Source of the DNA: Bacillota bacterium
Lineage (GTDB): Bacteria > Bacillota > Clostridia > Peptostreptococcales > Anaerovoracaceae
Direction: 5' to 3'
Assembly (NCBI GenBank): GCA_017459895.1
Contig: JAFUCA010000032.1
Coordinates: 1 to 62,743, forward strand
Length of the DNA stretch: 62,743 nucleotides
Under the pieces are notes generated by a model. It had not been told where the DNA came from. It was given only the letters and a program-made list of their open reading frames with translations, and searched no databases. Numbering within the stretch: position 1 is the stretch's first letter; every line of letters starts with the position of its first letter. Shown in pieces: positions 28,716-44,608 of the stretch. The position numbers were made by a program, and so were the translations under genes.

Positions 28716-29639
28716 TTGAGCAAAGCATATATTTTTGTTGTCATTACAGCGTTTCTGTTCGGATCCATGGAGGTCTCCTGTAAGATCGGGGGAGCGGATC
28801 TTGATGCCTTTCAGCTGACCTTTCTCCGGTTTGCCATCGGAGGACTGGTTCTGCTGCCCTTTGCCGTGATCGAGATGCGCCGCAGAGGCGTGCGGATCCA
28901 CGGGAAAGATGTGCTGCAGCTGGCCGGCGTCGGTGCCCTGGGAATTCCTGTGAGTATGGTTCTGTTTCAGCTCTCGATCATGTCCTCGAACGCGTCAACG
29001 GTCTCTGTGCTGATCTGCACCAGCCCGTTTTTCGTGATGCTGTTCGCTCATTTATTTACGGATGAGAAGCTGAACCGGGATAAGCTGATCGTGCTGGCGA
29101 TCGCGCTTATCGGGATCCTGTTCATGCTCCGTCCCTGGGATGTGCAGGAGGGCAACTCCATGCTCGGGATGGTGCTGATGCTGCTGGCGGCGCTCTTTTT
29201 TGGCGCTTATACCGTGGCAGGCAAAACGCTGGCGGCGCGGATGGGGCTGATGGCGCAGACCAGCTTCAGCTTCCTGATCGGTTCGGCCATTCTCCTGGTG
29301 ATCATCCTCTGCATGGGACGGCCGGTGCTGACCGGCGTGGCGGAGCACCTGCCCATCGTTCTCTACGTGGGAGTCATGGTGACCGGTGTGGGATACTTCT
29401 GCTATTTCAAGGCCATCGAGCTGTCCGATGCGGCGACGGGATCCTTCGCGTTTTTCCTGAAGCCGGCCATCGCGCCGACCCTGGCCCGGATCATATTAAA
29501 GGAGACGATCCTCTGGAATACGTTCGTGGGGATCGGTCTGATCCTGGCGGCCTCACTTCTGAATATTCTGAGCCAGAAGAAACGGATGAGCCAGCAGCGG
29601 GCTGCGGTGCGCCGCAGGAAGGAGGTCGGAAGTGAGTGA
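28716..29639 (+). CDS. EamA/DMT family transporter
   Basis: 307 aa, about ten hydrophobic helices in two EamA halves. Members export or import metabolites and amino acids. It starts with TTG at 28716, supported by ATGGAG upstream and by the fit of the first helix (AYIFVVITAFLFGSMEV). The end overlaps the NUDIX gene frame by 8 bases. The basic C-terminal tail QKKRMSQQRAAVRRRKE is probably cytoplasmic. Substrate unknown. Confidence 0.88.
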   Translation: MSKAYIFVVITAFLFGSMEVSCKIGGADLDAFQLTFLRFAIGGLVLLPFAVIEMRRRGVRIHGKDVLQLAGVGALGIPVSMVLFQLSIMSSNASTVSVLICTSPFFVMLFAHLFTDEKLNRDKLIVLAIALIGILFMLRPWDVQEGNSMLGMVLMLLAALFFGAYTVAGKTLAARMGLMAQTSFSFLIGSAILLVIILCMGRPVLTGVAEHLPIVLYVGVMVTGVGYFCYFKAIELSDAATGSFAFFLKPAIAPTLARIILKETILWNTFVGIGLILAASLLNILSQKKRMSQQRAAVRRRKEVGSE

Positions 29640-30429
29640 GGAGAAGATGGCTGACAAGAGGTTGACCGACGTGAAGACGACCGCTGGGAAGACGACCGCC
29701 GGGAAGACGACCGACGTGAAGACGACCAACGTGAAGACGACCGCCGGGGAGACGACCGCTTGGGAGGGGTCAGGCGGGGGGATGGAACCCACGGCGGCCC
29801 AGCTGCGGGAGATGTTCGCCGGGACCCCGCCGGTGCCGGAGAACCGGTTCCGTCACTATGCGGTCCTGATTCCGCTGATCCGGCGGGAGGACGGCATCCA
29901 TGTGCTGTACGAGGTGCGGGCCAGGGATCTGGACCGGCAGCCGGGGGAGATTTGCTTTCCCGGCGGCATGCAGGAACCGGGGGAAACCTGGCAGGAGTGC
30001 GCCCTGCGGGAGACCCGCGAGGAGATCGGCCTGAATCCGGAGAATGTGGAGGTGCTCAGCGAGCTGACGGTGATCTACGGGGTCGGGCGGTTTGCGATGC
30101 ATTGCTTCCTGGGACTTGTGGATGCCGAGGCGGCGGAGAATCTTCAGATCAGCCGTCAGGAGGTGGATCAGGTGTTTACCGTGCCGCTTTCGGACCTGTT
30201 GGAGGCGGAGCCGGAGGAATACCGGGCGAAGCTGATTCAGTACGGCCCGGAGGATTTCCCGTACAGAAGAGTCACGGGAGCCGATTCCTACCCCTGGTCA
30301 AAGATGACATCGCCGGTGCCGGTCTTCGATGTTGACGGCTGGGCGATCTGGGGCCTGACCGGCCGGGCAACGAAGGTGCTGGTGGAGGAGATTCGGAAAC
30401 GGAGCCGGACGGCTTCAAGCGATGACTGA
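29632..30429 (+). CDS. NUDIX hydrolase (CoA pyrophosphatase-like) with a repetitive N-terminal tail
   Basis: 265 aa from the GTG at 29632, or 216 aa from the ATG at 29779. The NUDIX box is GGMQEPGETWQECALRETRE plus EIGL, preceded by the CoA-type segment LIPLIRREDGIHVLYEVRA, as in CoA and nucleoside-diphosphate hydrolases. The first part is a chain of pentapeptides (DVKTT, AGKTT, AGETT) encoded by a 15-bp minisatellite (29663-29757). The repeat tail may be translated or may be an untranslated leader; the second start has only a G-rich upstream stretch. Confidence 0.85.
   Translation: MSEEKMADKRLTDVKTTAGKTTAGKTTDVKTTNVKTTAGETTAWEGSGGGMEPTAAQLREMFAGTPPVPENRFRHYAVLIPLIRREDGIHVLYEVRARDLDRQPGEICFPGGMQEPGETWQECALRETREEIGLNPENVEVLSELTVIYGVGRFAMHCFLGLVDAEAAENLQISRQEVDQVFTVPLSDLLEAEPEEYRAKLIQYGPEDFPYRRVTGADSYPWSKMTSPVPVFDVDGWAIWGLTGRATKVLVEEIRKRSRTASSDD
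29663..29757 (+). repeat. 15-bp minisatellite in the NUDIX 5' region
   Basis: About six tandem 15-base units around GACGACCGCCGGGAA / GACGACCGACGTGAA, kept in frame and encoding TT[AD][GV]K. A slippage-prone tract of this kind could vary in unit number between strains. Confidence 0.85.
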
Positions 30430-30440
30430 GATCAGAGTTT

Positions 30441-30717
30441 TGTCACGCAGCATCTCGATCTGAGTTGTTCTGTGACAAAACTTGAGAAGGAGTGTCACGG
30501 AAAGAGCAAAAAAGAGAGGCGTCGTGACAGTTTTGATGGTACATCCCAGCCTTTGTACGGGAAAGTCAAAGAAAAGTGTCACGAAAGCATCAAAAACAAC
30601 ACGCTGCGTGACAAGGATCGTTTCAGTTTGTCACGGAGACAGTCGTTTTTTAACCTTGCGTGACAATTTGCGGGAGATTTTGTCACGCAGGAGTTAAATA
30701 TCGTGCCGTGTGTGACA
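30441..30717. repeat. Array of ten TGTCAC motifs in five inverted pairs of fixed spacing
   Basis: This stretch (30430-30743) has no convincing gene. TGTCAC on the plus strand is at 30441, 30493, 30577, 30629 and 30681, and GTGACA at 30472, 30524, 30608, 30660 and 30712. Orientation alternates strictly, and each pair is exactly 31 bases apart (37-bp elements with variable 25-base interiors). Gaps between elements are 15, 47, 15 and 15 bases. The extended consensus is TTGTCACGSAR. The spacings are close to whole helical turns (31, 21, 53). The first pair extends to 11 bp (AGTTTTGTCAC). No known repeat family is recognised. Confidence 0.92.
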
Positions 30718-30743
30718 ATGCCGATAATCAAGGAGGATGTCTT

Positions 30744-31550
30744 ATGAAGTTCAAATTAGCGCTCTGTCAGATCGCAGGATCGATGGACAAGAATGAAAGC
30801 CGCAGAATCGCGGAGGAGCATGTGCGCCGGGCCGCGGAGGACGGGGCACAGGTGATCGCTCTTCCTGAAATGTGGGACTGCCCGTACTCGAACGATTATT
30901 TCAGAGAATATGCCGAGCCGGCGGACGGGGAAACCGTCGAGTTCATGTCGAAGCTCGCCGCGGATCTGGGCATTTACCTGATCGGAGGTTCGATTTCCGA
31001 GCTGGAGGGGGATAGGGTGTACAATACCTCCTTCAGTTTCAATCGCAGCGGCGATCTGATCGGCCGGCACCGCAAGGTCCACCTCTTTGACATCGATGTG
31101 GAGGGAGGCATCCGGTTCATGGAATCGGATACGCTGACCGCCGGACAGGACATGACGGTGATCGAGACCGAGTACTGCCCGATCGGCGTGGCGATCTGCT
31201 ACGATGTCCGTTTCCCGGAGTGGTTCCGCAAGATGTCCCTGGCCGGGGCGAAGCTGATCGTGCTTCCGGCAGCGTTCAATATGACCACCGGGCCGGCGCA
31301 CTGGGATCTGACCATCCGGGCCAGAGCGCTGGATAATCAGGTCTATTTCGCGGCGAATGCTCCCGCAAGGGATGAAAATGGGGTCTACGTGTCCTACGGC
31401 AACTCCTGCATCGCCAGTCCCTGGGGTGAATTCATCGCTCACGCCGATGAAAAACAGCAGATCCTCTATGGTGACATAGATCTGAATTATGTCGACACAA
31501 TCCGTGATCAGCTTCCGCTGCTGAAACACCGCCGGCCGGAGCTTTACTGA
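30744..31550 (+). CDS. Carbon-nitrogen hydrolase (omega-amidase/Nit2-like)
   Basis: 268 aa from the ATG at 30744 (AAGGAGG 7 bases upstream). Nitrilase-superfamily amidase with the Glu-Lys-Cys triad visible: Glu in LPEMWDCP, Lys in HRKVHLFDID, Cys in AICYDVRFPE. Nit2-type enzymes hydrolyse alpha-ketoglutaramate or ketosuccinamate to the keto acid and ammonia. The HLFDID and YDVRFPE wording fits this branch. It stands alone directly downstream of the TGTCAC array, which may control it. Confidence 0.9.
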   Translation: MKFKLALCQIAGSMDKNESRRIAEEHVRRAAEDGAQVIALPEMWDCPYSNDYFREYAEPADGETVEFMSKLAADLGIYLIGGSISELEGDRVYNTSFSFNRSGDLIGRHRKVHLFDIDVEGGIRFMESDTLTAGQDMTVIETEYCPIGVAICYDVRFPEWFRKMSLAGAKLIVLPAAFNMTTGPAHWDLTIRARALDNQVYFAANAPARDENGVYVSYGNSCIASPWGEFIAHADEKQQILYGDIDLNYVDTIRDQLPLLKHRRPELY

Positions 31551-44251: not shown

Positions 44252-44608
44252 GGGGGTGCACTGGTTTCGACGGGGGTGTGGAAACCGGATAAGCGAGCCG
44301 CAGATGGTCCAGCTGCGTTAAAAGGACCCGTTAAATACAAACGCTAAAAATAACAACAGACTCGCATTTGCTGCTTAGTTCAGCACCGCGCGCCGACTTC
44401 GGTTCACCTGTAGGCTGAAGACCCGGCGTCAAACATGCAGGAAACCTTATGTGAACCTCCCGGCAGCATAAGGGAATCACGGGATAGCTGAGGCAATAGC
44501 CTGCTTCTGGGCGCTTGCCGAGGCGAAACTTCAAATCAGAAGCTGCGCTCGGAGAAAGTCCGCTGGAAATGCTTTCGGACGCGGGTTCGATTCCCGCCAT
44601 CTCCACCA
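44252..44608 (+). ncRNA. ssrA: Transfer-messenger RNA (tmRNA)
   Basis: 357 bases. The 5' GGGGGTG pairs with 3' CATCTCC followed by ACCA; the T-arm GGGTTCGATTCCCG is at the 3' end and the conserved CTGGTTTCGACGG at the 5' end. The tag reading frame begins at GCT 44343 and ends at TAG 44376-44378, giving AKNNNRLAFAA (one codon more if the AAC before it is the resume codon). The CCA is encoded. The element begins right after position 44608, so the RNA itself stays intact. Confidence 0.96.

Follow-up and report, generated by a model that had tools for sequence, protein, structure and literature searches.

The window, that is, the whole stretch of 62,743 nucleotides analysed here, carries an array of short inverted motifs between a Nudix hydrolase-like gene and a nitrilase-superfamily amidase gene. 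The features of the locus are:

29632..30429, + strand: upstream neighbour, a putative Nudix hydrolase (name read from the sequence)
30441..30717, + strand: array core, five 37-bp units with ten alternating TGTCAC/GTGACA motifs (sequence, shuffles, pattern scans)
30441..30477, + strand: unit 1, TGTCAC-N25-GTGACA (motif scan)
30493..30529, + strand: unit 2, which also fits TGTCACG-N23-CGTGACA (motif scan)
30530..30576, + strand: 47-bp wide gap, with a motif step of 53 or roughly 5 turns (step scan)
30546..30557, + strand: CCAGCCTTTGTA inside the gap, one mismatch away from a 12-base word that recurs across the genome
30577..30613, + strand: unit 3, which also fits TGTCACG-N23-CGTGACA (motif scan)
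30629..30665, + strand: unit 4, which also fits TGTCACG-N23-CGTGACA (motif scan)
30681..30717, + strand: unit 5, ending 26 nt ahead of the amidase start codon (motif scan)
30730..30736, + strand: Shine-Dalgarno sequence AAGGAGG of the amidase gene, intact (sequence)
30744..31550, + strand: downstream gene, amidase of the nitrilase superfamily (omega-amidase or deaminated glutathione amidase-like; NCBIfam scores all below the curated cut-offs)

The stop codon of the Nudix hydrolase-like gene ends 11 bp ahead of the array, which is laid out as two units, the 47-bp gap and three units. The first-pass annotation of this DNA had described ten strictly alternating TGTCAC motifs, and a motif scan finds exactly ten exact motifs at 30441-30717; an exact scan returns the claimed steps of 31, 21, 31, 53, 31, 21, 31, 21 and 31. 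The search pattern it proposed, TGTCACG-N23-CGTGACA, fits three of the five window units and is found in none of 100 dinucleotide shuffles of the window. The array is far beyond chance. It is also neither a CRISPR nor a gene, as that annotation stated: conservation is confined to the motif, its neighbours and an A/T centre, and the near-identical 23-50 bp repeat that characterizes CRISPR units does not occur. A partition site had been suggested as well and has to be given up: the array does not fit the consensus of partition or terminus sites (parS or matS; TGTTNCACGTGAAACA or GTGACRNYGTCAC), since its half sites are spaced at 15 or 25 bp, both within units and in the linkers. The idea that the array serves as an operator remains a guess.

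The array belongs to a dispersed family. In the genome of origin (2.50 Mb across 55 contigs, with 93% completeness and 5% contamination), the pattern TGTCAC-N{23,27}-GTGACA has 72 matches and its reversed control none, and the interior is exactly 25 bp in all 72 units in a scan that allowed 23 to 27. These units form 19 arrays, two of which are identical duplicates on other, short contigs (C12 of C6 and C25 of C34), most likely through assembly redundancy or strain mixture. Setting aside the duplicates, of 3 and 5 units, leaves 17 distinct arrays with 64 units. Locating arrays by exact motifs favours well-kept ones; a scan of the window and 334 kb of other sequence found no decayed arrays. The commonest design, read in gene orientation, consists of three units, a 36-bp gap and two units, with steps of 31, 21, 31, 21, 31, 42, 31, 21 and 31. 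Eleven of the 17 arrays fit a 266-bp template of this kind with 57-60 of 60 motif bases, and L029 is a twelfth with 52 of 60; in L020 the fit lies inside a longer, partly duplicated array. The window copy, L017, L018, L023 and L030 differ from the template in unit order or gap and reach scores of 39 to 45.

The helical spacing noticed at the window locus extends to the family. Most inter-unit steps in the array cores measure 21 or 42, while 22, 32 (which involves a one-mismatch motif) and 53 occur once each; all of these are close to multiples of 10.5. Only the window copy has the 53-base step, the usual wide step being 42 (36-bp gap, four turns). One step scan forced the within-unit step to 31 and allowed one-mismatch motifs; its chains ran into the flanks and gave steps of 23-25, 28, 30, 31, 37 and 38 there. 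In an unforced scan for exact motifs, the adjacent steps from a forward to a reverse motif are 31 within the arrays, barring stray motifs in L020, L026 and L032. The geometry is conserved among the copies within this genome, and the orthologous loci in relatives carry no array.

Across the 64 units the conserved motif is WTTGTCACG, longer than TGTCAC. At the unit centre three bases are A or T in 121, 126 and 121 of 128 cases (both orientations counted), and this A/T centre lies 15.5 bp, or 1.5 turns, from the centre of each motif; its minor groove would face the same side as the major groove of the motif. Similar arrangements of sites on one DNA face, separated by whole turns and accompanied by A/T-rich bend points, are found in multi-site operators and in wrapped complexes such as those of Lrp or of lambda and Mu, whereas the putative sites described here are carried by a mobile element to 17 places.

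Since TGTCAC can pair with GTGACA, the motifs of a transcribed leader could form stems of 6-8 bp, and the arrays might be tandem RNA hairpins acting on translation or termination. We consider this very improbable. Beside the motifs, 12 positions in units and 7 in linkers were compared with shuffles (63 units, 36 linkers), and complementarity was nowhere 2 sd above them; the largest excess was 15 against 10.4 (sd 2.6), and three unit positions fell more than 2 sd below the shuffles, lowest of all the centre pair with 7 of 63 against 16.7. This lack of stem covariation speaks against hairpins and favours a protein on DNA, as do spacing steps that follow the DNA helix. The sole Rfam match, to a lncRNA family, has an E-value of 0.16 and lies far below the gathering score. 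A promoter in the 36-bp gap pointing at the gene, which would explain the orientation of the arrays, was considered and dropped: the sigma70-like scores of 19 gap candidates averaged 5.20 forward and 5.24 in reverse against 5.95 in shuffles, with two of the 19 being artefacts (one runs into the amidase gene, one into an array end).

No comparable array turned up in the other genomes searched. A strict three-motif pattern occurs in one of 61 relatives and one of 393 genomes of the order, in both cases the genome of origin itself. Elsewhere it matches 13 loci in a genome contig collection and three in viral contigs, searches in which records very near the genome of origin may be left out, and none of these loci has more than two units of the same geometry. 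The two-unit tandem in L061 (Bacteroidales), with near-identical interiors, and the pairs of linkers in L064, L065 and L072 were judged by eye to be unrelated. Searches of plasmid and phage DNA with one array element gave no matches. Small sets of GTGACA and TGTCAC motifs are present in MAGs of Bacteroidales, Eggerthellaceae, Atopobiaceae and Clostridiaceae (L061, L064, L065, L066 and L072); their steps of 21 and 31 match by construction of the search, some are arranged as large inverted repeats, and they are probably REP-like.

At orthologous positions, relatives lack the array. The amidase is present in 47 of 49 genomes of the genus, and no array precedes it in the loci of the 19 best relatives; in the nearest one (93% amino acid identity in the amidase) the intergenic gap measures 31 bp. 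Both flanks could be aligned to G010, G011 or G020 at 12 of the 17 loci (the window, L016, L017, L018, L019, L020, L024, L025b, L027, L029, L030 and L031), and all 12 sites are empty, which identifies the arrays there as insertions. The count leaves out L023, L025a, L026, L028 and L032, which could not be judged on both sides.

Many of the copies have recognizable ends. Better-kept copies start close to GGTAGCGTCAAGTGACGTATGAAAA at the end away from the gene and finish close to TGACACTACC at the gene-side end, and 10 of the 17 copies have one or both ends resembling GGTAGTGTCA or GGTAGCGTCAAGTGACGTATGAAAA. Against 300 shuffles, of which none or one was as good, at least one end stands out in L016, L019, L020, L023, L024, L026, L027, L028, L031 and L032, as judged with an end consensus made by eye from some of the scored copies. 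In all ten, the score of the ends as placed exceeds that with the ends swapped. The ends of L017 are borderline by score, and neither end is recognizable by score in the window copy, L018, L025a, L025b, L029 and L030. Family membership of these copies rests on architecture and position and, for the window copy, L018, L025b, L029 and L030, also on the empty site. The element is 325-328 bp long in four copies with both ends and 227 bp in the shorter L023. In these five copies the flanking 8 bp agree at 8, 7, 6, 5 and 0 of 8 positions (26 of 40, P = 1.1e-7), as expected for a target duplication. L023, whose boundary was set by eye with the duplication match known beforehand, can be removed, leaving 18 of 32 (P = 1.6e-4). 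No clear target duplication was seen for L019.

The same ends bound an insertion sequence in a relative. When the L027 element was searched against the DNA of the whole genus, its 25-bp end matched in G020, G010, G003 and G412; in a fifth genome, G031, only 26 bp matched, elsewhere in the element. In G010 the R-end of L027 (25 bp, two mismatches) and the 10-bp L-end enclose an insertion sequence of 1851 bp (L154:180-2030) with both ends, the other one reading GGTAGTGTCA, and a transposase of 479 amino acids. The arrays with readable ends thus share them with a transposase-encoding element, as MITEs do. The transposase scores just above the Pfam cut-offs for the rve_3, IS66 and IS240 domains (IS6/IS66: PF13610, PF03050). 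NCBIfam gives 70.2 bits for IS6 (NF033587, cut-off 125) and 39 bits for IS66 (NF033517, cut-off 180), too low to assign it to the IS6 family. IS6 elements make 8-bp target duplications and have ends beginning with GG; the partner resembles IS6/IS66 in these traits and in its DDE core, but differs in its length of 479 residues, its zinc-ribbon-like N-terminal region, its targeting of start codons and its NCBIfam scores below the cut-offs. Its insertion sequence contains no TGTCAC or GTGACA at all. At an E-value of 1e-60, relatives of the transposase occur in 2 of 197 genomes of the family and none in the genome of origin, so that mobilization of the arrays happened in the past or from sequence missing in the assembly. 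Eleven plasmids, with elements from Geobacillus and L. brevis among them, encode relatives with 33-46% identity; searches of viral contigs and phages gave none. The same 30-bp transposon end occurs in three relatives without an array (L155:2187, L156:2674 and L157:1725), possibly in other short elements of this transposon. Two earlier candidates for the partner failed: the strong IstB match that had suggested IS21 is unlinked to any array, and IS1595 gave no match.

The first-pass annotation had also offered a new family of the REP/BIME type. The dispersed family stands, with its 72 units genome-wide; the likeness to REP/BIME does not. Both consist of short inverted sequences scattered between genes, but the arrays lack a covarying palindrome and a RAYT with the same repeat. 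One RAYT-type Y1 transposase gene does exist in the genome (L073:1252-2067), and several loci in other bacteria combine GTGACA-N15-TGTCAC pairs with GGGACGG-like repeats, which is what could be expected if a RAYT had spread the family. The gene is flanked by its own inverted GGGGACGGTTCTCCGTC repeats and no array, however, and it is a DDE transposon whose ends and 8-bp duplications recur in the array elements; spread by a RAYT is close to refuted.

The transposon and the arrays also share an unusual choice of target. From the gene-side end to the start codon, the distance is 23 nt in 6 of 11 arrays and 15, 19, 21, 22 and 24 nt once each in the others. The six arrays whose gene-side end stands above shuffles (L024, L026, L027, L028, L031 and L032) give 23, 23, 22, 23, 23 and 23 nt; the gene-side ends of L017, L019, L020, L023 and L029 are looser and were set by eye. 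The insertion sequence in G010 ends 23 nt upstream of an ATG, as does one in G395 (48% identity). Of the eleven plasmid records, ten were measured (all but L167), and the five with a readable gene-side end are counted: they end 23, 24, 23, 23 and 18 nt upstream of the start codon, whereas the end is unreadable in L163, L166 and L168 (one locus), L169 and L170. Starts in MAGs and in L164 follow our own reading, and those of the other four plasmid insertions are annotated. Perfect 8-bp duplications flank four of the five plasmid insertions, which makes four of six among the insertion sequences with both ends read; L154 and L160 show no clear one. In most cases the target duplication sits directly ahead of the Shine-Dalgarno sequence, and the arrays with readable ends, the L154 sequence and the five plasmid relatives all point one way round. 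The exception to this placement is L025a, which has no readable ends and is separated by about 210 bp from the closest start codon. A DDE insertion-sequence type of this kind is seen in several Firmicutes (L154:180-2030, L158, L160-L162, L164 and L165), mostly 23 nt before starts. In the literature searched, titles and opening lines of abstracts gave no recognizable account of an insertion type that lands one way round beside the Shine-Dalgarno sequence. Insertion of this type, which leaves the ribosome-binding site intact, could help to place DNA before genes.

The transposon accounts for placement and orientation, and neither is in itself evidence of regulation. This bears on the idea that the operator array of a host regulator arose at a single gene and reached the others by recombination or duplication instead of transposition. 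Such an origin would fit arrays that, apart from L025a, sit immediately ahead of gene starts, ten of them with a readable end and the same orientation; it is nonetheless improbable given the 8-bp duplications, the ends shared with a transposon and the array-less insertion sequences found in the same position and orientation. The functionally mixed genes downstream also argue against it. They include rimI, bioB, a nitroreductase-like gene, aroQ, radC, nadA, a molybdenum-cofactor gene, a TSCPD gene, a cobD-like aminotransferase gene, a peptidylprolyl isomerase-like gene, a metH-like gene and a metal ATPase operon, besides three genes with no match; hutH is nearest to L025a. Cofactor genes look frequent among them, and we do not call the set a regulon.

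In seven close pairs of copies, drawn from two groups and hence not independent, the motifs are 98.1% identical and the body 76.0%, compared with 71% for the R-end and 74% for the L-end, both taken from alignments that permitted gaps, a choice that works in favour of the ends. Among L024, L027, L028 and L032, the variable columns number 2 of 60 in the motifs and 76 of 188 in the body (Fisher P = 2.6e-9), although differences between copies may predate insertion. In 110 motifs there are 16 departures: 15 change the sixth base alone (TGTCAC to TGTCAT or TGTCAA, on either strand) and one reads GTGGCA. That the motifs stayed intact while the rest drifted suggests that something still binds them.

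One explanation confines this binding to the element itself: the array would supply sites for a transposition protein or accessory factor, only intact copies would have moved, and the host would have no use for them. Transposons such as Tn7, Mu and IS21 have multiple subterminal binding sites, and differences in the body could partly predate insertion. Motifs kept only for moving should nevertheless be accompanied by kept ends, which any transposase needs, and the ends have diverged like the body. L028 and L032 combine weak R-ends with identical motif sets, and the transposon that shares the ends does without such motifs. We regard an element-only role as unlikely. Use by the host would be the simplest reason for kept motifs in copies with decayed ends.

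The reading we favour, with a probability of roughly two in three, is that the array is the body of a MITE whose phased motifs form a putative protein-DNA scaffold, one that selection would have maintained once the element was no longer mobile. That the array belongs to a MITE of a start-codon-targeting transposon has good support; the scaffold part is inferred from geometry and conservation. A MITE of about 325 bp in its well-kept copies, without a transposase gene, would have been mobilized in trans by an IS6/IS66-like DDE transposon, of a type that lands in a single orientation immediately ahead of Shine-Dalgarno sequences and makes an 8-bp target duplication. A sequence-specific protein might then read WTTGTCACG in the major groove and contact or bend the A/T centre 1.5 turns away, with up to ten subunits on one face of the DNA. 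After insertion the copies would have been dead as mobile DNA and their motifs held in place by selection, the simplest cause being that, from its place in the leader, the bound complex has come to influence the gene that follows or the local chromosome structure.

Measured against known bacterial MITEs, the family agrees in being short, in lacking a transposase gene and in having the inverted ends of a full insertion sequence, target duplications (8, 7, 6, 5 and 0 of 8 in the copies with both ends), many copies and empty orthologous sites at 12 of 12 loci, the window included. It differs in a body made of a ten-site phased array, in motifs better kept than the ends, and in insertion tied to Shine-Dalgarno sequences or start codons and to orientation. 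The mycobacterial MIRU, compared here by general description, are likewise intercistronic repeats mostly oriented with the operon, but they are minisatellites with small reading frames and are not known to contain phased inverted motifs.

Mobile elements have long been proposed as seeds of regulatory networks; to our knowledge, few bacterial cases show both the state before and the state after clearly. A further step, which we take only tentatively and hold to be rather doubtful, would be that the transposon placed the phased scaffold, with ten sites in most copies, in the leaders of some seventeen genes and that the host kept these as a new regulatory or chromosome-organizing network. Relatives as near as 93% (in one protein) have no arrays, and the wiring of genes would therefore have been caught soon after the event. 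Many genes of one species would then have been wired by transposition, in a lineage that shows empty sites, ends, partner transposon and kept motifs together.

Two other features of the window deserve mention. The gap of several arrays holds a version of the 12-base word CCAGCCTTTGCA, which is found exactly at window positions 2645, 5429, 22475, 25911, 31644, 33223 and 42167, besides near-matches; with up to one mismatch it occurs 20 times in the window against 0.33 expected. Exact copies number 87 in 465 kb (51 and 36 by strand), compared with 0.065 expected by simple composition, and by eye they lie in both coding and intergenic DNA. Among relatives, G011 has five in 25 kb, G010 two in 21 kb and G020 none in 19 kb. 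Its distribution is suggestive of a signal word, of the DNA-uptake type or another. The window also contains a tmRNA gene at 44252-44608, with the tag AKNNNRLAFAA.
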